Positions 3,464 through 61,370 of a DNA stretch of 64,000 bases are shown piece after piece; position 1 is the stretch's first letter, and each line of letters starts with the position of its first letter. The notes beneath the pieces were generated by a model. The model did not search any database, was not told the DNA's origin, and worked only from the letters and a program-made list of their open reading frames with translations. The position numbers were made by a program, and so were the translations under genes. The stretch covers positions 1,501,001 through 1,565,000 of the forward strand of contig NZ_JARBAX010000001.1 in assembly GCF_028807635.1 (NCBI RefSeq). The letters run 5' to 3'. The DNA comes from Streptomyces spiramyceticus. GTDB taxonomy: Bacteria > Actinomycetota > Actinomycetes > Streptomycetales > Streptomycetaceae.

Positions 3464-3500
3464 GGTGTGGGGCGTCAGCCCGCGCCCCCCGGCCGGGGGC

Positions 3501-3545
3501 CTGGGGGCTTGCCCCCAGTTCGGGGAGGGGCGGGTAGGGGAAAAG
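3501..3545. repeat. Dispersed GC-rich element, copy 1 (right half)
   Basis: Contains the inner hairpin GGGGGCTTGCCCCC and the terminal arm of the GGGGAGGGGCGGGTAGGGG type. It matches the right end of the copy at 47226-47410. No left arm is seen, so this is a partial copy at the 3' end of the exporter gene. Confidence 0.7.
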
Positions 3546-3554
3546 AAGCCCGCG

Positions 3555-4868
3555 TTAGTCCGACGCGCGCTGCCATGGGCGGCACAGGGTTGCGAAGCAC
3601 GTCATCGATGCCAGTGCGCACGTCAGTTGCACCACCGCCATCGGTACCGCCGTCGCCTCGCCCGCGATGCCCACCAGGGGGGAGGCGATCGCGCCGATCA
3701 GGAAGGACGACGTACCCAGCAGCGCGGACGCCGAGCCCGCCGCGTGCGGGGTGCGGGTGAGGGCCAGTGCGTTGGTGTTCGGGAGGGCCAGGCCCATTGC
3801 TGACATCAGGGTGAAGAGGCCTGCCGCTACGGGGATCAGGCCTACCTCTCCGAAGACGCCGGTGGTCATCAGGAGAAGGGCGAGCGAGGCCAGTGCGATG
3901 AGGGTGATGCCGAAGCCCAGGACCTTGTCCATGCTGACCCGGCCCACGAGCAGCTTGCCGTTGATCTGGCCGACACCGATCAGGCCGATCGAGTTGATCG
4001 CGAAGAGCAGGGAGAAGGTCTGCGGCGAGGCGCCGTAGATGGACTGGATCACGAAAGGCGACGCCGAGATGTACGCGAAGAGGGCGGCGAAGGCCAGGCC
4101 TCCCGCAAGCACGTAACCCGTGAAGACGCGGTCCGCCAGCAGGCCCCGCATCGTGCGGAGCGCTTGGCCGACGCCCCCTTCGTGCCGCCGGTCCGCCGGC
4201 AGCGTCTCGTGCAGCCACTTCCATACGACGAGTGTGAGGAGGACGCCGACGGCGGTGAGAACGACGAAAACGCCCCGCCAGTCCGTCAGCCGCAGCACCT
4301 GCCCGCCGATGACGGGCGCGATGACCGGCGCGACGCCCGAGATCAGCATCAGGGTCGAGAAGAAACGGGCCATCTCGACGCCGTCGTAGAGGTCACGGAC
4401 GACCGCCCGCGCGATGACGATGCCCGCCGCCCCGGCCAGCCCCTGGAGCAGGCGGAAGGCGATCAGGAGCTCCGCGGACGGCGCGAAGGCGCAGATCGCG
4501 GTGGCTACGACGTACACGATCATGCCGAGCAGCAGCGGCCTGCGGCGGCCGAACCTGTCGCTCATCGGGCCGACGACGAGCTGCCCGAGCGCCATGCCCG
4601 CCAGGCACGCGGTGAGCGTGAGCTGCACGGTCGCGGCGGGTGAGCGGAGCGATTCCGTGACCTCGGGGAGGGCCGGTAGGTACATGTCCATGGAGAGCGG
4701 CGGCAGAGCGGTGAGGCCGCCGAGTACCAGGGTGACCAGGAGACCTGCGGTGCGACTGGTGGCAGAAGCGGGAGTGGCAGAAGCGGCGGTGGCAGAACCT
4801 GTGGCGGCTGCGGTTTCGGCCTCCGCCCCGGGTATGTGGCCCTGTGCGGACTGGCCTGTCTCCGTCAT
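3555..4868 (-). CDS. Bcr/CflA-type MFS multidrug exporter
   Basis: 437 residues, about 12 hydrophobic segments. The N-terminal helix carries LPPLSMDMYLPALPE, a hallmark of the Bcr/CflA drug:H+ antiporter subfamily, and the loop 2-3 motif GPMSDRFGRRRPLL is standard MFS. It probably exports drugs or small metabolites across the membrane. I chose the ATG at 4868 because GGAG (4875-4878) sits six bases upstream; an ATG at 4880 in the same frame lacks such a site. The N-terminal 40 residues are Ala/Thr/Ser rich and cytosolic. Divergent from the Gfo/Idh gene. Substrate unknown. Confidence 0.88.
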   Translation of the reverse strand: MTETGQSAQGHIPGAEAETAAATGSATAASATPASATSRTAGLLVTLVLGGLTALPPLSMDMYLPALPEVTESLRSPAATVQLTLTACLAGMALGQLVVGPMSDRFGRRRPLLLGMIVYVVATAICAFAPSAELLIAFRLLQGLAGAAGIVIARAVVRDLYDGVEMARFFSTLMLISGVAPVIAPVIGGQVLRLTDWRGVFVVLTAVGVLLTLVVWKWLHETLPADRRHEGGVGQALRTMRGLLADRVFTGYVLAGGLAFAALFAYISASPFVIQSIYGASPQTFSLLFAINSIGLIGVGQINGKLLVGRVSMDKVLGFGITLIALASLALLLMTTGVFGEVGLIPVAAGLFTLMSAMGLALPNTNALALTRTPHAAGSASALLGTSSFLIGAIASPLVGIAGEATAVPMAVVQLTCALASMTCFATLCRPWQRASD

Positions 4869-11814: not shown

Positions 11815-12432
11815 ATGACTTCCGTGCTGGACCATGCTGCCGTCGTCCCCGTCGTAGTCCTGGAGGACGCCGCCGACGCGGTTCCGCTCGCCCGCGCACT
11901 GGTCGCGGGCGGGCTGCCGGCGATCGAGGTGACACTGCGGACGCCCGTCGCGCTGGACTGCATCCGCGCGATCGCGGCGGAGGTGCCGGATGCGGTGGTG
12001 GGGGCCGGCACGGTGATTTCGGCGGCGGGGGTGGCCGATTCGGTCGCGGCCGGGGCGCGGTTCCTGGTGAGCCCGGGGTGGACGGACGGGCTGCTGGACG
12101 CGATGAGGGGGGCCGGCGTTCCGTTCCTGCCGGGGGTGTCCACGGCCTCGGAGGTGGTGGCGCTGCTGGAGCGCGGCGTGACGGAGATGAAGTTTTTCCC
12201 GGCGGAGGCGGCGGGCGGCATCGCGTACCTGAAGTCCCTCGCCGCGCCGCTTCCCGGGGCGAGGTTCTGCCCGACGGGCGGCATTACGCGGGCTTCGGCG
12301 CCGGGGTATCTGGCGCTGGGGAATGTGGAGTGCGTCGGGGGGACGTGGATGCTGCCGGGGGACGCGGTTGCGTCGAAGGACTGGGGGCGGGTGGAGAGGC
12401 TGGCGCGGGAGGCGGCGGCGCTGCGGGGGTAG
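11815..12432 (+). CDS. eda: KDPG/KHG aldolase
   Basis: 205 residues. AIEVTLRT contains the proton-shuttle Glu38 and substrate Arg42. EMKFFPAE contains the Schiff-base Lys126, and the GAGT and TGGI phosphate-binding segments are present. Class I aldolase: cleaves 2-keto-3-deoxy-6-phosphogluconate (and 4-hydroxy-2-oxoglutarate) to pyruvate plus aldehyde in the cytoplasm. ATG 11815 gives a normal N-terminus; earlier frames do not. It stands alone with no kinase or dehydratase beside it, so it may serve sugar-acid catabolism encoded elsewhere. Its 3' side is occupied by the dispersed element. Confidence 0.9.
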   Translation: MTSVLDHAAVVPVVVLEDAADAVPLARALVAGGLPAIEVTLRTPVALDCIRAIAAEVPDAVVGAGTVISAAGVADSVAAGARFLVSPGWTDGLLDAMRGAGVPFLPGVSTASEVVALLERGVTEMKFFPAEAAGGIAYLKSLAAPLPGARFCPTGGITRASAPGYLALGNVECVGGTWMLPGDAVASKDWGRVERLAREAAALRG

Positions 12433-12467
12433 GCGCGGGGGTAGGGGCGCCTGCGGCGGGCTTCTTT

Positions 12468-12721
12468 CCCCACCCCGCCCCTTCCCGAACTGGGGGCGGG
12501 CCCCCAGACCCCGGACGCCCTTGGGGGTCCCCTCGGACGAAGTCTGGGGGAGTGTCCTCAAACGCCGGACGGGCTGGATTTTCCGGCCCGGCCGGAAAAT
12601 CTCAGCCCCTGGGGGTCTCCCCTGGACGAAGTCCTTGGGGGAGTTTGAGGAGCGGAGTCTGGGGCGAAGCCCCCGCGGCGGCAGCCGCAAAATGTCACAG
12701 CCGGGAAGGGGCGGGGTGGGG
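12468..12721. repeat. Dispersed GC-rich element, copy 2 (complete, 254 bp)
   Basis: Bounded by perfect 19-bp inverted termini CCCCACCCCGCCCCTTCCC (12468-12486) and its complement (12703-12721). Inside are GGGGGCGGGCCCCC-type hairpins, the CAAACGCCGGACGGGC core, a run of nested palindromes around TTTTCCGGCCCGGCCGGAAAA and the conserved AATGTCACAGCCGGG segment before the right arm. The 376-base space between eda and the convergent RNase H gene holds this element and no gene. Confidence 0.8.
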
Positions 12722-12808
12722 AACAGGCCCCCCGCAGCGGCCTCGCCCTCGGCCCCACGACCGGGGCGCCCCAGGCCGAGGCCCAGCCCACGCGCCCCGG
12801 ACCACCGC

Positions 12809-18189: not shown

Positions 18190-18469
18190 TTGGGTGGGGC
18201 GGGTGCGCGTGCGGTGCGCGTGAGTGCCGATGCGCGTGCGGTGCGGGCGCGGGTGCGGGTGCGCGTGCGGTGCAGTTCCCCTCCCCGCCCCTTCCCGAAA
18301 CTGGGGCTCCGCCCCAGACCCCGCTCCTCAAACGCCGGAGAGGCTGGATATTCCGCCGGAGGGGCTGGATATTTCAGCCCGTCCGGCGTTTGAGGCCCGC
18401 GGCGGAGCCGCTAATGTCACAGCGGGAAGGGGCGGGGTGGGGAACAAGCCCGCCGCAGGCGCCCCCGCC
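18190..18469. other. Intergenic region: GTGCGG tract plus dispersed element
   Basis: 280 bases without a gene. The first 85 bases are alternating GTGCG/GCGTGCGG purine-pyrimidine repeats; the rest is complete element copy 3. It ends at the stop of the convergent SDR gene. Confidence 0.7.
18276..18444. repeat. Dispersed GC-rich element, copy 3 (complete, 169 bp)
   Basis: The left arm TTCCCCTCCCCGCCCCTTCC (from 18276) and the right arm ending GGGGCGGGGTGGGGAA (to 18444) pair over 22 bases with one mismatch. Inside: GGGGCTCCGCCCC hairpin, CAAACGCCGGAGAGGCTGG, its inverse near 18385, and AATGTCACAGCGGG before the right arm. Confidence 0.8.
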
Positions 18470-19426
18470 TCAGCCGTGCTTGAGGGCAAGCACCTCCGCC
18501 GCCCCGAACGTCTCGTCCCCCGGACGCTCCTCGAAGTACGACGACAGCCGGTCGTCCAGTTCCGCGTACGAGAAGACGTCCTTCGACGTATCGAACTTCG
18601 CCGCCACCTTGGGGCGTTCCATGGCGGCGACCATGCCGCCGTGGACCACCAGCAGCTGGCCGTTGACCTTGGCGGCTGCCGGAGAGGCGAGGTAGCCGAC
18701 GAGCGGGGAAACGTGCTCGGGGGCCAGCGCGTCGAGTTCTCCCGCGGAGGGTTCCGCGAAGCCGGCGAAGACGTCCTCCGTCATACGCGTACGCGCACGC
18801 GGGCAGATCGCGTTGGCTGTCACCCCGTACTTGGCGAGGGCGAGCGCCGTCGACGTCGTCAGGCCGACGATGCCACCCTTGGCCGCCGCGTAATTGGGCT
18901 GGCCCGCCGAACCCGCCAGGTACGCCTCGGACGAGGTGTTGACGATCCGGCCGTACACCGGGCGGCCCCCGGCCGCCTTCGACCGCTCACGCCAGTGGCC
19001 GGCCGCGAAGTGCGTGGTGTTGAAGTGGCCCTTGAGGTGGACCCGTATCACCGAGTCCCACTCCTCCTCGGTCATCGAGAAGACCATCCGGTCACGCAGA
19101 ATGCCCGCATTGTTGACCAGGATGTCGAGCTTTCCGTACGTATCGACGGCCAGCTGGATCAGCTCGCCCGCCTGCTCGTAGTCGGATACGTCGCCGAGGT
19201 GCGCGACGGCCCGCCCGCCCGCCGCGCGGATCTCCGCGGCGACCTCCTCCGCCGGGGCGGCCGACGCCTCACCGGAGCCGTCGCGGCCCGGCTGCCCGTA
19301 GTCGTTGACGACGACGCTCGCCCCGAGCCCGGCCAGTTCCAGCGCCTCGGCGCGGCCGAGGCCGCGGCCCGCGCCCGTCACGATCGCGGACAGCCCGTCG
19401 AGTGGCTGCGGCAGTAGCTGTGGCAT
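18470..19426 (-). CDS. Hsd4A/MFE-2-type 3-hydroxyacyl-CoA (steroid) dehydrogenase, SDR family
   Basis: 318 residues. Cofactor motif TGAGRGLG (17-24), NNAG, VNTSSEAY and the active-site YAAAK. The length and long C-terminal extension (SAGELDALAPEHVSPLVGYL) match the dehydrogenase part of peroxisomal multifunctional enzyme 2 and mycobacterial Hsd4A (about 317 aa). In steroid side-chain beta-oxidation this enzyme oxidises the 3-hydroxyacyl-CoA to the ketone. It is the last gene of the MaoC-ADH-SDR operon, read from the KstR-box promoter at about 21.5 kb. Substrate is inferred from context. Confidence 0.82.
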   Translation of the reverse strand: MPQLLPQPLDGLSAIVTGAGRGLGRAEALELAGLGASVVVNDYGQPGRDGSGEASAAPAEEVAAEIRAAGGRAVAHLGDVSDYEQAGELIQLAVDTYGKLDILVNNAGILRDRMVFSMTEEEWDSVIRVHLKGHFNTTHFAAGHWRERSKAAGGRPVYGRIVNTSSEAYLAGSAGQPNYAAAKGGIVGLTTSTALALAKYGVTANAICPRARTRMTEDVFAGFAEPSAGELDALAPEHVSPLVGYLASPAAAKVNGQLLVVHGGMVAAMERPKVAAKFDTSKDVFSYAELDDRLSSYFEERPGDETFGAAEVLALKHG

Positions 19427-25136: not shown

Positions 25137-25502
25137 GCTCGCAGCATTGGTGTGACCCGTACATGTGGGTTTTGGGGCGTGGCGTGGGGGTGTCGGTGCG
25201 GGTGCGTGTGCGGTGCGGGTGTGTCGTGCGGGTTGCCTGCGGCGCAGTTCCCCTACCCGCCCCTTTCCCGAAACTGGGGGCAAGCCCCCATACCCCCGGA
25301 CGCCCTTCGGGCGTGGTCCTCAAACGCCGGAGGGGCTGGAAAATCCAGCCCCTCCGGCGTTTGAGGAGCGGGGTCTGGGGCGGAGCCCCCCGCGGCGGCA
25401 GCCGCAAATGTCACAGCCGGGAAGGGGCGGGGTGGGGAAAGCCCGCCGCAGGCGCTGCGCCCCGGAGGCCAAGGCTGCCGCAGGCGCCTGCGCCCTGCGG
25501 GG
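25137..25502. other. Intergenic region: GTGCGG tract plus dispersed element copy 4
   Basis: 366 bases without a supported gene between the exporter start and the thiolase stop. It holds a GTGCGGGTG-type simple repeat (about 25165-25240), complete element copy 4, and a GCCGCAGGCGCTGCGCC inverted tail before the thiolase gene. Confidence 0.7.
25248..25439. repeat. Dispersed GC-rich element, copy 4 (complete, 192 bp)
   Basis: The left arm begins TTCCCCTACCCGCCCCTTTC and the right arm ends GGGGCGGGGTGGGGAA. At its centre is a perfect 24-bp palindrome (25317-25340 with 25344-25367, loop AAA) built on CAAACGCCGGAGGGGCTGGA. AATGTCACAGCCGGG precedes the right arm as in copies 2, 3 and 7. Confidence 0.85.
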
Positions 25503-29406: not shown

Positions 29407-29682
29407 TCAGAGGCCGCCCTCGGCGGCGGCCGTGACGAACGCGGCGAACGCGGAGGGGGTGACGGCGAATGCGGGGCCGTCGGGGTTCTTGGAGTCGCGG
29501 ACGGCGATACGGCACGGCTGAGCGGCGACCTCGACGCAGTCGCCGCCGGAGCTTCCGCTGTACGACGACTTACGCCAGGCGAGTGCGCCGAGTGTGGCGC
29601 ACTCGATGCAGTCACCTCCGGTGTCGCCGCTGTACGACGACTTACGCCACCGTGCGCCCGTCAGGTTCTGGCTGGTCCCCAT
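29407..29682 (-). CDS. Tandem DUF397 protein
   Basis: 91 residues with two DUF397 units, each opening WRKSSYSG (about 12-30 and 36-91). DUF397 proteins are small partners of WhiJ/Scr1-type regulators in Streptomyces and influence development; the mechanism is unknown. The start overlaps the end of the regulator gene by 41 bases, with a GGAG ribosome-binding site inside that gene. Most DUF397 proteins have a single unit, so the duplication is notable. Confidence 0.85.
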   Translation of the reverse strand: MGTSQNLTGARWRKSSYSGDTGGDCIECATLGALAWRKSSYSGSSGGDCVEVAAQPCRIAVRDSKNPDGPAFAVTPSAFAAFVTAAAEGGL

Positions 29683-34955: not shown

Positions 34956-35249
34956 ATGTCACCTCGTCATGGCAATGGCCGCAACCAGGCGGCGACGATC
35001 ATCGCCATCGTCGCCGACGTCCTGGCCGGCGTCATCGTCCTGTGGATCCTGATGTACCTGCTGGACGCGAACCGGGAGAACGGGCTGGTGAGCTTCGTCC
35101 AGGACGCCGCGCGGTGGCTGGCCGCGTGGTCGTACGACCTGTTCACCTTCGACGATGCGTGGGCGCGGGTCGTGGCCGGTTATGGGCTTGCGGCGGTGGT
35201 GTACCTGTTCGTCGGGCATGCGGTTGCGGGGCGGTTGCGGCGGCATTGA
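34956..35249 (+). CDS. Small two-helix membrane protein
   Basis: 97 residues. Hydrophobic segments at about 12-36 (AATIIAIVADVLAGVIVLWILMYLL in two parts) and 70-92 flank an amphipathic middle (SFVQDAARWLAAWSYDLF). The C-terminus is basic (GRLRRH). No family is recognised. Lies 60 bases after the LLM gene and is followed by element copy 5. Confidence 0.65.
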   Translation: MSPRHGNGRNQAATIIAIVADVLAGVIVLWILMYLLDANRENGLVSFVQDAARWLAAWSYDLFTFDDAWARVVAGYGLAAVVYLFVGHAVAGRLRRH

Positions 35250-35271
35250 GTCGGCGCCTGCGGCGGGCTTT

Positions 35272-35346
35272 CCCCCACCCCGCCCCTTCCCGAAACTGGG
35301 GGCTTCGCCCCCAGACCCCCTTTGTCCTCAAACGCCGGACGGGCTT
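35272..35346. repeat. Dispersed GC-rich element, copy 5 (left half)
   Basis: CCCCACCCCGCCCCTTCCCG arm, GGGGGCTTCGCCCCC hairpin and CAAACGCCGGACGGGC core; no right half. It stops within seven bases of the stop codon of the convergent toroid-enzyme gene. Confidence 0.75.
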
Positions 35347-35352
35347 ACTTTC

Positions 35353-36423
35353 CTAGCAGCAGTCGGGTTCCAGGCCTCGCGGCAGCCTCTCGCCGCCGAA
35401 GACTGCCGTGGTTGCCTCGTCTCCTCCAAGGGCCGCCACCGCCAGCAGCAGCGAACCCGCCGTCCACGTGGTGAGCTCCTCGGGCCATACCGCCCGGTTG
35501 CCCTCGAAGACGTAACCCGTCCAGTACATGCCGCCCTCGGCGCGCAGGTGCTGGATCGACTGGAGGATCTCCAGGGCACGGTCGGACTCGCCCATCACCC
35601 AGAGCGCCAGGGCCAGTTCGCAGCTTTCGCCGCCCGTCACCCACGGGTTGGGCAGCACGCACCGCACCCCGAGGCCGGGGACCACGAACGCGTCCCAGTG
35701 GTCCTCGATGCGCTCCTTGGCCTCGGCGTCCGTCAGCGCGCCGCCGAGGACCGGGTAGTACCAGTCCATCGAGTAGCGGCTCTTGTCCAGGAACCGCTCC
35801 GGGTGGCGTCGGATGGCGTGCCGGAGCGCGCCGACCGCCAACTCCCAGTCGGGCTGCGGCTCTTCGCGCTGCTCGGCGATGGCGAGCGCGCAGCGCAGCG
35901 CCTGGTGGATCGAGGAACTGCCCGTCAGCAGCGCATCGTTGACGGGCGTTCCGTCGTCCTCGCGCTTCCAGCCGATCTCGCCGCCGGGCTGCTGGAGGGC
36001 GAGTACGAACTCGGTCGCCGCGTAGACCGCCGGCCACATCCGGTCGATGAAGGCGTCGTCGCCGGTGGCGAGGTAGTGGTGCCAGACGCCGACGGCGATG
36101 TACGCGCAGAAGTTGCTCTCGCGGCCGCGGTCGGTGACCTGCTCCGCGTCGCCGTCGTCGTACGCCGCGTACCAGGATCCGTCCGTGTTCTGGTGCCTGG
36201 CCAGCCACTCGTAGGCGCGTGCTGCGGCCTCGTGCTCGCCCGCCGCGTCGAGCGCCATGGCGGCCTCGGTGTGGTCCCACACGTCGAGGTGGTGGCCACG
36301 GAACCACGGAATGGCGCCGTCCTCGCGCTGTGCGGCAAGGATGCCCGCCACCGTCTCGGCGGCCTCGTCGGCCGTGAGGACACCGGGCAGGACGAGGTGT
36401 TCCGTACGTCCGGGACTTGTCAC
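35353..36423 (-). CDS. Alpha/alpha-toroid (prenyltransferase/squalene-cyclase repeat-like) protein
   Basis: 356 residues from a GTG that overlaps the methyltransferase stop (GTGA). The sequence is a series of helical hairpins with aromatic/Gly turns (ILAAQREDGAIPWF, WLARHQNTDGSWYAAY, RYSMDWYYPVLGG, GMYWTGYVFEGN), a toroid fold shared by terpene cyclases, protein prenyltransferases and some glycoside hydrolases. The DXDD or QW motifs of true squalene-hopene cyclases are not evident. Third gene of the GT4-methyltransferase-toroid unit, so it may act on the same glycoconjugate. Substrate unknown. Confidence 0.7.
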   Translation of the reverse strand: MTSPGRTEHLVLPGVLTADEAAETVAGILAAQREDGAIPWFRGHHLDVWDHTEAAMALDAAGEHEAAARAYEWLARHQNTDGSWYAAYDDGDAEQVTDRGRESNFCAYIAVGVWHHYLATGDDAFIDRMWPAVYAATEFVLALQQPGGEIGWKREDDGTPVNDALLTGSSSIHQALRCALAIAEQREEPQPDWELAVGALRHAIRRHPERFLDKSRYSMDWYYPVLGGALTDAEAKERIEDHWDAFVVPGLGVRCVLPNPWVTGGESCELALALWVMGESDRALEILQSIQHLRAEGGMYWTGYVFEGNRAVWPEELTTWTAGSLLLAVAALGGDEATTAVFGGERLPRGLEPDCC

Positions 36424-45260: not shown

Positions 45261-46397
45261 GTGACCTCCAAGGCCCTCCGCGCGCCCGAAGCGAACCGCA
45301 GCAACGCCCTGCACGCCGGGGCCTGGTGGCTGTGGGCGCTCGGGCTCGCCGCAGCCGCTTCCCGGACCACCAACCCGCTGTTGCTCGGGATGCTGGTGGG
45401 GGTGGCGGGGTACGTGGTGGCGGCGCGCAGGACGGATGCGCCGTGGGCGCGTTCGTACGGGGCGTTCGTCAAGCTCGGGCTGGTCGTCATCGGGATCCGG
45501 CTGGTCTTCTCGGCCTTCCTCGGCTCACCGATCCCGGGCATCCACACCGTCTTCTCGCTGCCCGAAGTGCCGCTGCCCGGCTGGGCGCAGGGCGTACGGA
45601 TCGGCGGGCGGGTGACGGCCGAACAACTGGTCTTCGCCCTGTACGACGGGGCGAAGCTGGCCACGCTGCTGATCTGCCTGGGCGCCGCGAACGCGCTCGC
45701 CAATCCGGCGCGGCTGCTCAAGTCCCTGCCCGCCGCACTGTACGAGGCCGGGGTCGCGGTCGTCGTCGCGATGACCTTCGCGCCGAACATGGTCGCCGAC
45801 GTCGTACGACTGCGTACCGCGCGCCGCCTGCGCGGCCGTCCGATCGGTGGCGTCAAGGCCGTCCTCCAGATCGGGCTGCCCGTACTTGAGGGCGCCCTGG
45901 AACGGTCGGTCGCGGTGGCCGCGTCGATGGACGCGCGCGGTTACGGGCGCACCGCCCAGGTCCCGCCCGCAGTGCGCCGTACGACGACCGCGCTGACGCT
46001 GGGCGGGCTGCTCGGTGTCTGCGCCGGGTCGTACGGGCTGCTGGCCGCCGAGGGGGCGGCGTACGGTCTGCCGGTCCTGGTGGCCGGGCTCGTGGCCGCG
46101 ATGGCGGGCCTGCGGCTTGGCGGCCGGCGCAGCGTCCGTACCCGCTACCGGCCCGACGAGTGGGGTGTGCGGGCGTGGCTCGTGGCCGGGTCGGGTGCGG
46201 CGGTCGCGGCGCTGATGATCCGGGCGGGTTCGTGCGATCCGGAGGGGCTGCATCCGGGGGTTGTGCCGCTGGTGGCGCCGGAGTTCCCGCTCTGGCCGGC
46301 GGCGTCCGTCCTGATCGGCTTGCTGCCGGCTTTTGTGGCTCCCCTGGCCCCTGTGGTTCCCGTGGCCCCCGTACAGAAAGCGAATAAAGGCCTGTGA
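45261..46397 (+). CDS. ecfT: ECF transporter T component (EcfT/CbiQ-like)
   Basis: 378 residues from GTG 45261, 73 bases after the preceding stop. About six to eight membrane helices. Coupling motifs: RTARRLRGRPIGG and the second Ala-Arg-Gly motif in SMDARGYGR. This scaffold transmits ATPase movement to the S component in the membrane. The C-terminus has Val/Pro repeats (APVVPVAPV). The stop overlaps the ATPase start as GTGA. Confidence 0.88.
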   Translation: MTSKALRAPEANRSNALHAGAWWLWALGLAAAASRTTNPLLLGMLVGVAGYVVAARRTDAPWARSYGAFVKLGLVVIGIRLVFSAFLGSPIPGIHTVFSLPEVPLPGWAQGVRIGGRVTAEQLVFALYDGAKLATLLICLGAANALANPARLLKSLPAALYEAGVAVVVAMTFAPNMVADVVRLRTARRLRGRPIGGVKAVLQIGLPVLEGALERSVAVAASMDARGYGRTAQVPPAVRRTTTALTLGGLLGVCAGSYGLLAAEGAAYGLPVLVAGLVAAMAGLRLGGRRSVRTRYRPDEWGVRAWLVAGSGAAVAALMIRAGSCDPEGLHPGVVPLVAPEFPLWPAASVLIGLLPAFVAPLAPVVPVAPVQKANKGL

Positions 46398-48187
46398 TCC
46401 GGTTCGAGAATGTGTCGGTCCGCTACGGCGATGCTGCCGCGCCCGCGATCCAGGGCGTCGATCTCACGGTGCCCGAGGGTGAACTCGTACTGCTCGTCGG
46501 CCCGTCGGGGGTCGGCAAGTCGACTCTGCTGGGCGCGGTTTGCGGGCTCGTACCCCACTTCACGGGTGGCACCCTGCGCGGCCGCGTCACGGTCGACGGC
46601 CGTGACACCCGTACGCACAAGCCGCGCGAACTCGCGGATCTCGTCGGCACAGTGGGCCAGGACCCGCTCGCGCACTTCGTCACCGACACCGTCGAGGACG
46701 AGCTGGCGTACGGCATGGAATCGCTGGGCCTCGCGCCGGGCGTCATGCGACGCCGGGTCGAGGAGACGCTGGATCTGCTGGGCCTGGCGGAGCTGAGGGA
46801 CCGCCCGATCGCCACCCTGTCCGGCGGCCAGCAGCAGCGCGTGGCGATCGGCTCGGTCCTGACGCCGCACCCGAAGGTGCTGGTCCTGGACGAGCCGACG
46901 TCGGCGCTGGATCCGGCGGCGGCCGAGGAGGTCCTCGCGGTGCTGCAGCGTCTGGTGCACGACCTCGGTACGACGGTGCTGATGGCGGAGCATCGGCTTG
47001 AGCGGGTTGTGCAGTACGCGGACCAGGTCATTCTGCTGGCGGGGCCGGGTGAGGCGCCGGTCATCGGTGACCCCCGCTCTGTCATGGCGATGTCGCCCGT
47101 GCATCCGCCAGTGGTGGGGCTTGGGCGCCTCGCGGGCTGGGACCCGCTGCCCCTTTCTGTACGGGATGCGCGGCGGGGGGCGGCGGACCTGCGGGCACGG
47201 CTGGCCGGCGCGGAGCCGGACTTTGTTCCCCACCCCGCCCCTTCCCGAACTGGGGCTCCGCCCCAGACCCCGCTCCTCAAACGCCGGAAAGGCTGGTTTT
47301 CCTGGCCCGGACTGGGTATTTCAGCCCGTCCGGCGTTTGAGGACACGCCCGGAGGGCGTACAGGGGGTCTGGGGGCTTGCCCCCAGTTCGGGAAGGGGCG
47401 GGTAGGGGAGAGCCCGCCGCAGGCGCACCCCATCGCAGCCATCGCAGGGCTCGGCGTCCGACGCGACCGCGTCGAGGCCCTCCGACGGATCGACCTGGCC
47501 GTCTCCCCGGGCGAAACCATCGCCCTCATGGGCCGCAACGGCGCCGGCAAGTCCACCCTCCTCTCCACCCTCGTCGGCATGATCGAGCCCACATCCGGCT
47601 CCGTGAGCGTCGGCGGCCGCACCCCCCACCGCACCCACCCCCGCGAGATGGTCCGCCGGGTCGGGCTCGTCCCGCAGGAGCCGCGCGATCTGCTGTACGC
47701 CGACACCGTCGCCGCCGAGTGCGCGGCGGCCGACAGCGACGCGAGCGCCGAGCCCGGGAGCTGCCGCGCACTGGTGACCGCGCTCCTCCCGGACGTACAG
47801 GACGCCACGCATCCGCGCGATCTGTCCGAGGGCCAGCGCCTCGCCCTGGCCCTCGCCATCGTGCTCACCGCGCGCCCCCCGCTCCTCCTCCTCGACGAGC
47901 CGACCCGCGGCCTGGACTACGCGGCGAAGGCCCGCCTGGTCGGGCTCCTGCGCGCCCTGGCCGCCGACGGGCACGCGATCGTACTGGCGACGCACGACGT
48001 CGAGCTCGCCGCAGAGCTCGCCCACCGCGTCGTGATCCTCGCCGACGGCGAGGTCGTCGCGGACGGTCCCACGGCCGAGGTCGTCGTCTCCTCCCCCGCC
48101 TTCGCCCCGCAGGTCGCGAAGATCCTCGCGCCGCAGAAGTGGCTGACCGTCGCGCAGGTACGCGACGCACTGGGAGGAGCCGTATGA
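46394..48187 (+). CDS. Fused double ATPase of ECF transporter, with element-derived linker
   Basis: 597 residues containing two ABC ATPases (EcfA and EcfA' in one chain). Domain 1 (about 1-270): Walker A GPSGVGKST (36-44), signature LSGGQQQR, Walker B VLVLDEPTS. Domain 2 (about 350-597): Walker A GRNGAGKST (380-388), variant signature LSEGQRLAL, Walker B LLLLDEPTR. Residues about 278-339 are encoded by a complete copy of the dispersed repeat (47226-47410) and read PHPAPSRTGAPPQ, RTGGLGACPQFGKG: proline/glycine-rich, with no ATPase homology. Other fused EcfA proteins have shorter linkers by my recollection. Overlaps the S-component start (ATGA). Confidence 0.9.
   Translation: MIRFENVSVRYGDAAAPAIQGVDLTVPEGELVLLVGPSGVGKSTLLGAVCGLVPHFTGGTLRGRVTVDGRDTRTHKPRELADLVGTVGQDPLAHFVTDTVEDELAYGMESLGLAPGVMRRRVEETLDLLGLAELRDRPIATLSGGQQQRVAIGSVLTPHPKVLVLDEPTSALDPAAAEEVLAVLQRLVHDLGTTVLMAEHRLERVVQYADQVILLAGPGEAPVIGDPRSVMAMSPVHPPVVGLGRLAGWDPLPLSVRDARRGAADLRARLAGAEPDFVPHPAPSRTGAPPQTPLLKRRKGWFSWPGLGISARPAFEDTPGGRTGGLGACPQFGKGRVGESPPQAHPIAAIAGLGVRRDRVEALRRIDLAVSPGETIALMGRNGAGKSTLLSTLVGMIEPTSGSVSVGGRTPHRTHPREMVRRVGLVPQEPRDLLYADTVAAECAAADSDASAEPGSCRALVTALLPDVQDATHPRDLSEGQRLALALAIVLTARPPLLLLDEPTRGLDYAAKARLVGLLRALAADGHAIVLATHDVELAAELAHRVVILADGEVVADGPTAEVVVSSPAFAPQVAKILAPQKWLTVAQVRDALGGAV
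47226..47410. repeat. Dispersed GC-rich element, copy 6 (complete, inside a CDS)
   Basis: The left arm starts TTCCCCACCCCGCCCCTTCC and runs to CGAACTGGGG (47255). The right arm is CCCCAGTTCGGGAAGGGGCG onward to 47410; arms pair over 30 bases with about three mismatches. Central CAAACGCCGGAAAGGC and its inverse CCGGCGTTTGAGG are present. The reading frame of the ATPase gene passes through it without a stop. Confidence 0.85.
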
Positions 48188-48996
48188 CCACCGCGCGCCC
48201 CGTGCGGCTCGGCCCCCGGTCGGTCGCCGCACTCCTGCTCGTCAGCGCGATCGGCGTCATCGCCTTCGGCTGGCCGCTGCTGGCCGACTCCGCCTCCGGG
48301 CTCGCCCACTCGCAGGACGCCCCCTGGCTGTTCGCCGCCCTGCTGCCGCTCCTGGTCGCGGTCGTGGTGGCGACGATCTCCGACTCCGGACTCGATGCGA
48401 AGGCCGTGGCGATGCTGGGGGTGCTGGCCGCCGTGGGGGCGGCGCTGCGCCCGCTCGGGGCGGGGACGGGGGGTCTGGAGCCGATGTTCTTCCTGATGGT
48501 GCTGAGCGGCCGCGTCCTCGGCCCGGGCTTCGGCTTCGTACTCGGCTCGGTGACGATGTTCGCGTCCGCGCTGCTCACGGGGGGTGTAGGGCCGTGGATG
48601 CCGTTCCAGATGCTGGCCATGGGCTGGTTCACCATGGGCGCGGGCCTGCTGCCCGGAGCGGAGAGGCTGCGCGGCCGCGCGGAGCTGGCGATGCTGGCGG
48701 CGTACGGATGCGTCGCCGCCTTCCTCTACGGCGCCGTCACGAACCTCCAGGGCTGGCCGTACATGGACAGCGACTCCAGTGGCATCTCCTTCGACCCCGA
48801 CGATCCGCTGCACGAGAACCTGGCCCGCTTCCTCGCGTACTGCATGGCCACTTCGCTGGGCTGGGACCTGGGCCGGGCCACGCTCACCGTCGTACTGACG
48901 CTCACGCTCGGCACGACGCTCCTCAAGGCACTGCGCCGGGCAACGCGCCGTGCGGCCTTCGAGGCGCAGGTCACATTTGACGGTCCCGGGCGGTGA
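48184..48996 (+). CDS. ECF transporter S component (predicted cobalamin specificity)
   Basis: 270 residues; ATG overlaps the ATPase stop. About six membrane helices including LEPMFFLMVLSGRVLGPGFGFVLGSVTMFASALLTGG, the usual S-component helix-loop with GPWMPFQM following. The S component binds the vitamin in the membrane. Cobalamin is inferred from the riboswitch and operon; the family alone would allow other substrates. Closes the five-gene operon. A small AGGACC-TT-GGTCCT hairpin (49007-49020) follows. Confidence 0.87.
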   Translation: MTTARPVRLGPRSVAALLLVSAIGVIAFGWPLLADSASGLAHSQDAPWLFAALLPLLVAVVVATISDSGLDAKAVAMLGVLAAVGAALRPLGAGTGGLEPMFFLMVLSGRVLGPGFGFVLGSVTMFASALLTGGVGPWMPFQMLAMGWFTMGAGLLPGAERLRGRAELAMLAAYGCVAAFLYGAVTNLQGWPYMDSDSSGISFDPDDPLHENLARFLAYCMATSLGWDLGRATLTVVLTLTLGTTLLKALRRATRRAAFEAQVTFDGPGR

Positions 48997-61214: not shown

Positions 61215-61239
61215 CGGGCCGGGGGGCGGAGCAGATTCC

Positions 61240-61322
61240 GGGGGCCCGGGGCCTGCCCCCACGCGGCGGCAGCCGCACATGTCACAGCCGGGAAGGGCCG
61301 GGTAGGGGAACTGCGCCGCAGG
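61240..61322. repeat. Dispersed GC-rich element, copy 7 (right half)
   Basis: GGGGCCTGCCCC hairpin, GCGGCGGCAGCCGC, ATGTCACAGCCGGGAAGGGC, and GCGCCGCAGGC, followed by a GCACCCGCACCCC simple repeat to about 61370. No left arm. Lies between convergent HAD and GDT1 genes. Confidence 0.7.
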
Positions 61323-61370
61323 CAACCCGCACCACTCAACGCACCCGCACCCCGCACCGCACCGCACCCG

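Follow-up and report, generated by a model that had tools for sequence, protein, structure and literature searches.

How can a repeat that normally lies between genes come to be read as part of a protein? This question is raised by a fused ECF-type ATPase gene at 46394..48187 (+) of the window, the whole 64,000-nucleotide stretch of Streptomyces DNA analysed here. According to the open reading frame (ORF) list, the gene has a GTG start and encodes two ABC domains in 597 amino acids. The linker between the domains carries a copy of a dispersed palindromic repeat. In the following, G000 is the genome of the window, G085, G119 and G114 are sister species, and L numbers denote individual loci.

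The host ATPase and the element in its linker

Pfam ABC_tran was matched in two stretches of the ATPase, and its top NCBIfam matches are ECF ATPase models, all under the equivalog cut-offs. The N-terminal ABC domain with a short helical tail (approximately residues 1-266; 46394..47191, +) was delimited using AlphaFold2 and an orthologue alignment. It belongs to a block modelled with pLDDT values of 79-95 up to residue 270, and orthologues conserve the N-terminal part as far as RDARR. The C-terminal ABC domain (47432..48184, +) was placed using a start-codon scan, Pfam and the AlphaFold2 model. In this model, based on a 37-row alignment, both ABC domains are confident and residues 283-342 have pLDDT values below 50. 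No in-frame ATG, GTG or TTG was found between residues 242 and 378, so the second domain with its first strands cannot start alone from a usual start codon. Separate translation of the second domain was considered on this basis and looks unlikely.

The ATPase gene overlaps by a few bases with both an upstream T-component and a downstream S-component candidate. The probable EcfT (45261..46397, +), which overlaps the ATPase start, matches CbiQ with an E-value of 0.00093 and 19.3 bits, compared with a cut-off of 25. The probable S component (48184..48996, +), which overlaps the ATPase stop, matches ECF_trnsprt with 29.1 bits, compared with a cut-off of 30.7. A FolT-type model is also among the matches of the two neighbours, again under its cut-off. 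With regard to Group II ECF systems, the two ABC domains are present and the T and S neighbours match only under cut-offs. The label of vitamin importer that the original prediction gave to this system is thus not established.

The element, a captured palindromic repeat recognised by its genomic copies, its hairpin and the pLDDT values, spans 47222..47431 (+) and residues 277-346 (FVPHPAPSR...GKGRVGESPPQAHP), and its in-frame peptide is FVPHPAPSRTGAPPQTPLLKRRKGWFSWPGLGISARPAFEDTPGGRTGGLGACPQFGKGRVGESPPQAHP. The ORF list and the translation agree that the gene reads open across the whole of it. The element is a near-complete copy, with 81-83% identity to the best genomic copies over approximately 200 nt. 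Its left arm (47226..47296, +) is 98.6% identical over 70 nt to the G000 copy L040 and 100% identical over 63 nt to L033. The right arm (47325..47409, +) is 100% identical over 28 nt and 98% identical over 48 nt to G000 copies; its core, CCGGCGTTTGAG, is translated as P-A-F-E and its end as G-K-G-R-V-G. An outer module (47405..47431, +), which begins with GCCGCAGGC and encodes S-P-P-Q-A-H-P, recurs next to other copies of the repeat, and matches extend to query base 209-210, which moves the right edge of the element to approximately 47431. The original prediction of an element that supplies linker residues in frame is therefore borne out, except that the right border (placed at 47410) and the length of about 62 residues have to be corrected to approximately 47431 and 70 residues.

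As RNA, the linker copy forms a single long hairpin of -152.9 kcal/mol, compared with a mean of -106.6 kcal/mol for shuffled sequences (z -8.8). Like a MITE, it is short, has inverted arms over approximately 200 nt and lacks a transposase gene of its own. The per-codon log-odds is -0.16 for the element and +0.30 and +0.43 for the flanking ABC domains, as expected for captured non-coding DNA. An Rfam scan of 47100-47550 returned no credible match; the best candidate for a known RNA family, a miRNA with an E-value of 0.4, was rejected because it is far under the gathering score.

A repeat family of gaps behind gene ends

We surveyed 1.264 Mb of contig 1 of G000 (1101001-1965000, which includes the window, and 4400001-4800000), with genes called by a codon-usage caller trained on 31 ORFs of the window. 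At 50 bits or more there are 44 copies of the repeat in this DNA, and none when the queries are reversed. Together with the ORF that is open through the element, these numbers confirm that a repeat lies in frame between the two ABC domains. By position, 22 copies are in convergent gaps, 19 in tandem gaps, none in divergent gaps and 3 inside genes. The window and the second stretch were chosen because each held a known intragenic copy; without those two, 1 of 42 copies is intragenic. Given that divergent gaps make up 51.6 kb of the 174.8 kb of intergenic DNA surveyed, their lack of any of the 41 intergenic copies indicates that they are avoided. Avoidance of divergent gaps (also in G085, with 1 of 16 classed copies) and preference for convergent ones (22 of 41) are as expected for terminators or structures at mRNA 3' ends. 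Of the best 30 G000 copies, 2 are within genes and the other 28 occupy intergenic gaps (15 convergent and 13 tandem). The 18 copies from G085 comprise 9 in convergent, 6 in tandem and 1 in divergent gaps; the other 2 are at contig ends and are unclassed, one of them overlapping a called ORF.

Searching G000 with the element gave at least 102 matching pieces, with 40 of 181 candidates scored. Across the genus, the family was matched with an E-value of 1e-10 in at least 114 of 199 genomes, a lower bound given that 4 candidates were scored per genome. The 15 genomes with the repeat in the ECF linker are all among these 114 (compared by eye), and in them the linker itself may be the match. No RAYT (PF01797, Y1_Tnp) was matched in G000; the control search was positive in 5 of 14 genomes. 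Depending on the frame, 7 to 14 of the 27 near-full copies of G000 and G085 are open. As many copies can be read through in more than one frame, a single in-frame insertion is unsurprising. Judged by its sequences, the repeat is a mosaic of approximately 185-210 nt, like a REP or MITE cluster, that is widespread in the genus and normally located in gaps behind gene ends.

The window contains six other copies, all of them intergenic as originally predicted. They lie between called genes with overlaps of 6 bases or less, 5 of the 6 between convergent genes. For the copies at 12432..12755 and 18240..18475, both in convergent gaps, the same gap of G085 also bears a repeat. There is no 45-bit match in the G085 gaps that correspond to the tandem-gap copy at 25225..25464 and the short convergent-gap copy at 61235..61336. 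The syntenic G085 gap also lacks a match at a third site, the short convergent-gap copy at 35246..35357, where the G085 anchors are approximately 35 nt apart. The partial convergent-gap copy at 3485..3555 has no left anchor in G085. Comparison of 35228-35353 with the near-empty G085 site, the one site compared, involves species too distant for a target site duplication to be read. Elsewhere in the window, at 29524-29649, there are two direct copies of 54 nt, spaced 72 nt and 83% identical.

The three intragenic copies among the 44 are in the ECF ATPase, a kinase with a PQQ propeller and a SARP/BTAD regulator, and all three lie in what are apparently interdomain linkers. The kinase copy (L057, 1390-1651; G000 contig 1, 4594673-4594976) is in frame between the kinase domain, whose match ends at 277, and the propeller, and follows a Gly/Ser/Asp-rich stretch. 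In the kinase linker of G085 the repeat is matched with 127 bits in the same frame, where the peptide ARPAIEDT corresponds to ARPAFEDT. The G114 kinase has no DNA match and only a faint peptide resemblance, on a contig that ends within or near the linker, and neither G119 nor G023 has a kinase match at an E-value of 1e-100. Tandem units of the GAGADS/DAGGDS type directly precede the repeat in L057; none were seen in the G085 orthologue. The copy in the SARP-type regulator (L268; G000 contig 1, 1484412-1484515) is partial and in frame. It covers approximately residues 253-288, between the BTAD domain, which ends at 237, and an AAA match (324-455) under its cut-off. The G085 and G023 orthologues have no repeat match in this linker. 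The G114 piece, on a contig ending near residue 275, also has none, and the G119 piece leaves the linker uncovered.

Occupied and empty linkers among orthologues

We parsed 168 orthologous loci, which gave 159 distinct linkers: 88 from the genus genome set and 71 from named Streptomyces records. The sampling is uneven, as the genome set contributed the best 30 from 199 genomes, 18 good loci and 40 hand-picked ones, mostly from the top of the remainder. The named part derives from the best 80 of at least 583 matches, all 80 of them from Streptomyces; one of the six patterns behind it lies in the element, which introduces a small bias. Using 29 other G000 copies as queries, repeat DNA was detected at 35 bits or more in 24 of the 159 linkers, including that of the window. 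Reversed queries and equally long DNA from the C-terminal domain each gave 0 of 159. This threshold was chosen because at 30 bits the 39 matching linkers out of 159 are accompanied by matches in 7 reversed and 4 C-domain controls. Two of the 24, L098 and L145, score weakly (40-44 bits) and represent another type. The alignment of orthologues thus provides empty sites, in that 135 of the distinct linkers have no match, and linker lengths vary. A linker sequence common to the orthologues and unrelated to the repeat, which the original prediction named as evidence against itself, was not observed.

The two domains are joined in one open frame by 131 of the 135 element-free linkers and by 22 of the 24 occupied ones, where the exceptions are L169, with a frame difference, and L094, with a stop at residue 579. 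The fusion of the ATPase is therefore independent of the element. Native linkers are Pro/Ala-rich and of variable length, often with a basic motif near L-x-R-L-L-x-R-R, and by eye the repeat precedes this motif wherever both are seen. The motif is shared by many native linkers (L001-L198) in an otherwise hypervariable segment, and it is absent from the window gene and also from some element-free linkers.

In a domain tree made by a quick method, with SH-aLRT support only and a midpoint root, 21 of the 24 occupied linkers are on one side of a branch with support 97 that holds 74 of the 159 rows. The minimum number of occupancy changes on this tree is 12. Hairpins with z of -3 or below were found in 5 of the 24 occupied linkers (L001, L159, L187, L151 and L164), compared with 1 of 123 element-free linkers tested. 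The occupied linkers form a gradient of decay in which the frame is mostly kept.

With up to 2 mismatches allowed, the right-arm core is in phase 0, reading P-A-F-E, in 19 of 20 occurrences among the 24 linkers, and the right end of the repeat is in phase 2 in 16 of 17. Both right-arm exceptions are L166, from the draft genome G119. In this locus, a one-base shift affects the element jointly with the Walker A motif, relative to the first domain and to the rest of the second, so the element is in its usual frame relative to Walker A. L166 has two compensating shifts, and in L169 (G082) the domains are in different frames; some of L169, L094 and L166 may be broken genes or sequence errors. For the left end of the repeat, 7 of 9 occurrences share one phase, and the left core is in phases 0, 1 and 2 in 1, 4 and 2 cases, respectively. 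As a control, we used the other 144 loci. Loose right-core matches there are in phase 0 in 7 of 7 cases (including copies of two positives and two duplicated pairs), which weakens the frame argument. Loose right-end matches are spread over all phases (4, 3 and 6), which makes the right end the better witness of frame. Of 40 genomic right arms, 39 are closed in phase 1, 13 in phase 0 and 19 in phase 2; phases 0 and 2 are thus often open, and a choice between them was often possible. We also considered a coding-like preferred frame and rejected it, as the mean codon log-odds of the right arm are nearly equal (-0.20, -0.21 and -0.23). Codon bias therefore fails to explain the shared frame, and stops explain the loss of phase 1 only. 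The shared right-arm frame makes one site inherited within the main clade more plausible than numerous independent insertions.

In the domain tree, the window gene forms a group with G085, G119 and G114 (support 100), and the domain DNA of these species is 87.1%, 88.2% and 86.6% identical to that of the window gene, respectively. The repeat is present in the linkers of G085 and G119; in G114, where the gene is also fused, the linker gave no match at 35 bits. A misassembly of the linker element is unlikely, given that the repeat occupies the same position in sister species. The capture is not one fresh event, as the linker is occupied in G085 and G119 too, and the window copy would have been installed or homogenised later. 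The window linker is 67% identical to the G085 linker (L159) over 221 nt, or 73% over 131 nt with other cut points, compared with 82-83% over approximately 200 nt for genomic copies of G000 and G085. Against the G085 linker, the left arm is 91.5% identical over 59 nt (100% over a 36-nt piece) and the right arm 91.8% over 49 nt. Against other G000 copies, the left arm reaches 98.6-100% and the right arm 98%, which is above the 87.1% identity of the domain DNA. Since the window linker is closer to genomic copies than to the G085 linker, its present sequence was most likely acquired from the repeat pool once the lineage had split from G085. At the intergenic 12.4 kb site, the G000 copy scores 98.7 bits with the G085 copy and 240 with other G000 copies; at the 18.2 kb site, the values are 59.9 and 151. 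Lasting sites with exchanged sequence suggest gene conversion, to which re-insertion at favoured sites is the rival. The linker was most likely re-inserted or rewritten after the split, possibly through gene conversion.

Capture, probable renewal and known systems

We consider it probable that the repeat was captured in the disordered linker of an already fused gene, survived by virtue of its open frame and was later replaced by the current repeat type. A copy of a repeat that dwells in gaps would have entered the long, disordered and fast-evolving linker of the fused EcfA ATPase. It could survive there by being open in the frame of the gene, in a linker that would tolerate almost any hydrophilic sequence. 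For this capture step, the position, the frame, the predicted disorder and the fusion of genes without the element are established. The common ancestor of G000, G085 and G119 probably had an occupied linker already, and occupancy may date back further within the larger clade. The window copy would then have been replaced by the current repeat type of the genome, either through conversion from intergenic copies or through re-insertion at the same spot; arms that are 98-100% identical to genomic copies point to the replacement, and either process may have produced it. The element would now be a passive flexible spacer between the halves of the ATPase, and ribosomes would translate it across a strong hairpin in the mRNA. 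Approximately 70 residues of predicted flexible linker have thus arisen from a palindromic repeat that is normally non-coding, and the original idea of a non-coding repeat turned into protein finds support, as far as sequences can tell, in the form of an in-frame event in an older linker.

Renewal of the linker might also be continuous, with ectopic gene conversion from intergenic repeats rewriting it again and again while frame and position stay fixed. We regard such concerted evolution as conceivable without counting on it; if it occurs, the repeat pool of the genome would supply new linker sequences, and other interdomain linkers may draw on that pool too. We are similarly hesitant about recurrent independent insertion, in which a repeat that is still mobile hits the permissive linker, open frames are selected and the G000 copy is recent and unrelated to those of the sister species. 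Such a history would fit the changes on the tree, at least 12 in number, the resemblance of the G000 linker copy to current genomic copies and the SARP-gene copy that has no match in G085 and G023. It would also fit the right border in G000, which enters the outer module and lacks the basic motif that follows the repeat in many occupied linkers, and the near-universal closure of phase 1 in genomic right arms, which narrows the usable frames. It is harder to reconcile with one right-arm frame throughout, though phase 2 is open in 21 of the 40 genomic arms, and with the position of the repeat, which precedes the native basic motif in every linker where both are visible. Nor is a transposase known for the repeat, and G000 has no RAYT.

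A single old insertion with vertical descent and plain decay, where chance retention explains the likeness of the G000 copy to genomic copies, would account for the clustering of 21 of the 24 occupied linkers to one side of a supported branch and for the gradient of hairpin decay (5 of 24 compared with 1 of 123). We judge it improbable because a left arm 98.6-100% identical to G000 copies, in a gene 87% identical to its sister, is unexpected without exchange. This largely contradicts the history for the window copy, and it may hold in other clades. The original prediction had offered both an insertion into an older linker that preserved the frame and a fusion of two genes across an element. 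The element-free orthologues, already fused and open in 131 of 135 cases, support the insertion and contradict the fusion. Fusion across the element could appeal to the 19 of 41 intergenic copies that lie between tandem genes; against it are also the sister G114, fused with a linker that has no repeat match, and G231, which belongs to another family and was compared for fusion, where a single open frame matches residues 2-593. We consider such a fusion extremely improbable. There is also little likelihood of a selected function, whether an mRNA hairpin that slows translation or transcription between the domains or a peptide with a specific role. The strength of the hairpin (-152.9 kcal/mol) and its place between two domains would suit such a function, but strong hairpins (z of -3 or below) occur in only 5 of 24 occupied linkers, linker sequence and length vary widely, and 135 of 159 linkers have no repeat match, so the element is not needed. 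The reading we favour remains capture in an older linker followed by replacement.

By mode of working, and as far as the available descriptions go, the closest precedent of the Streptomyces element is the Rickettsia palindromic elements (RPEs). These are described as palindromic repeats of approximately 150 bp that unrelated genes carry in frame and that encode a conserved peptide, and nearly half of them are located in ORFs (PMC10969869). The Streptomyces repeat resembles them in being a dispersed palindrome, with 44 copies, that appears in frame in three unrelated genes. It differs from the described RPEs in that genic location is not frequent, with 3 of 44 copies in called genes, all in apparent interdomain linkers. 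The host is moreover a GC-rich, free-living genus, and the copies appear homogenised. Small intergenic elements with inverted repeats and open frames that also occur inside genes have been described as the enterobacterial repeat units RU-1/2/3 (PMC2759123) and the Coxiella QMITEs (PMC5896051), and intragenic ERIC is named as well (PMC10969869). As described there, these are scattered single cases, whereas here one conserved gene is involved in many species. REP/BIME are described as dispersed palindromic modules near gene ends, some of them inside ORFs, and REPs are at about the same site in recB of X. campestris and X. oryzae (PMC3733652). Unlike REPs with a RAYT, the repeat has no such partner (PF01797) in G000, and its units exceed the 20-40 bp stated for REPs (PMC3733652). 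In Borg proteins, tandem repeats are described as creating disordered regions (PMC9879509); those repeats are tandem, direct and located on archaeal extrachromosomal elements, whereas the present one is a dispersed palindrome in a bacterial transporter. Among the literature matches listed, mostly titles and starts of abstracts from outside subscription journals, there is no report of this repeat or its capture in Streptomyces.

The locus raises the testable claim that non-coding repeats renew protein linkers, and it carries a warning that hypervariable linkers of annotated GC-rich proteins may derive from repeats. Rickettsia is the best-known case of palindromic repeats captured in frame, and this locus adds a Streptomyces system with many sequenced species, in which one old fused gene shows the same linker in an empty, a decayed and a fresh state.
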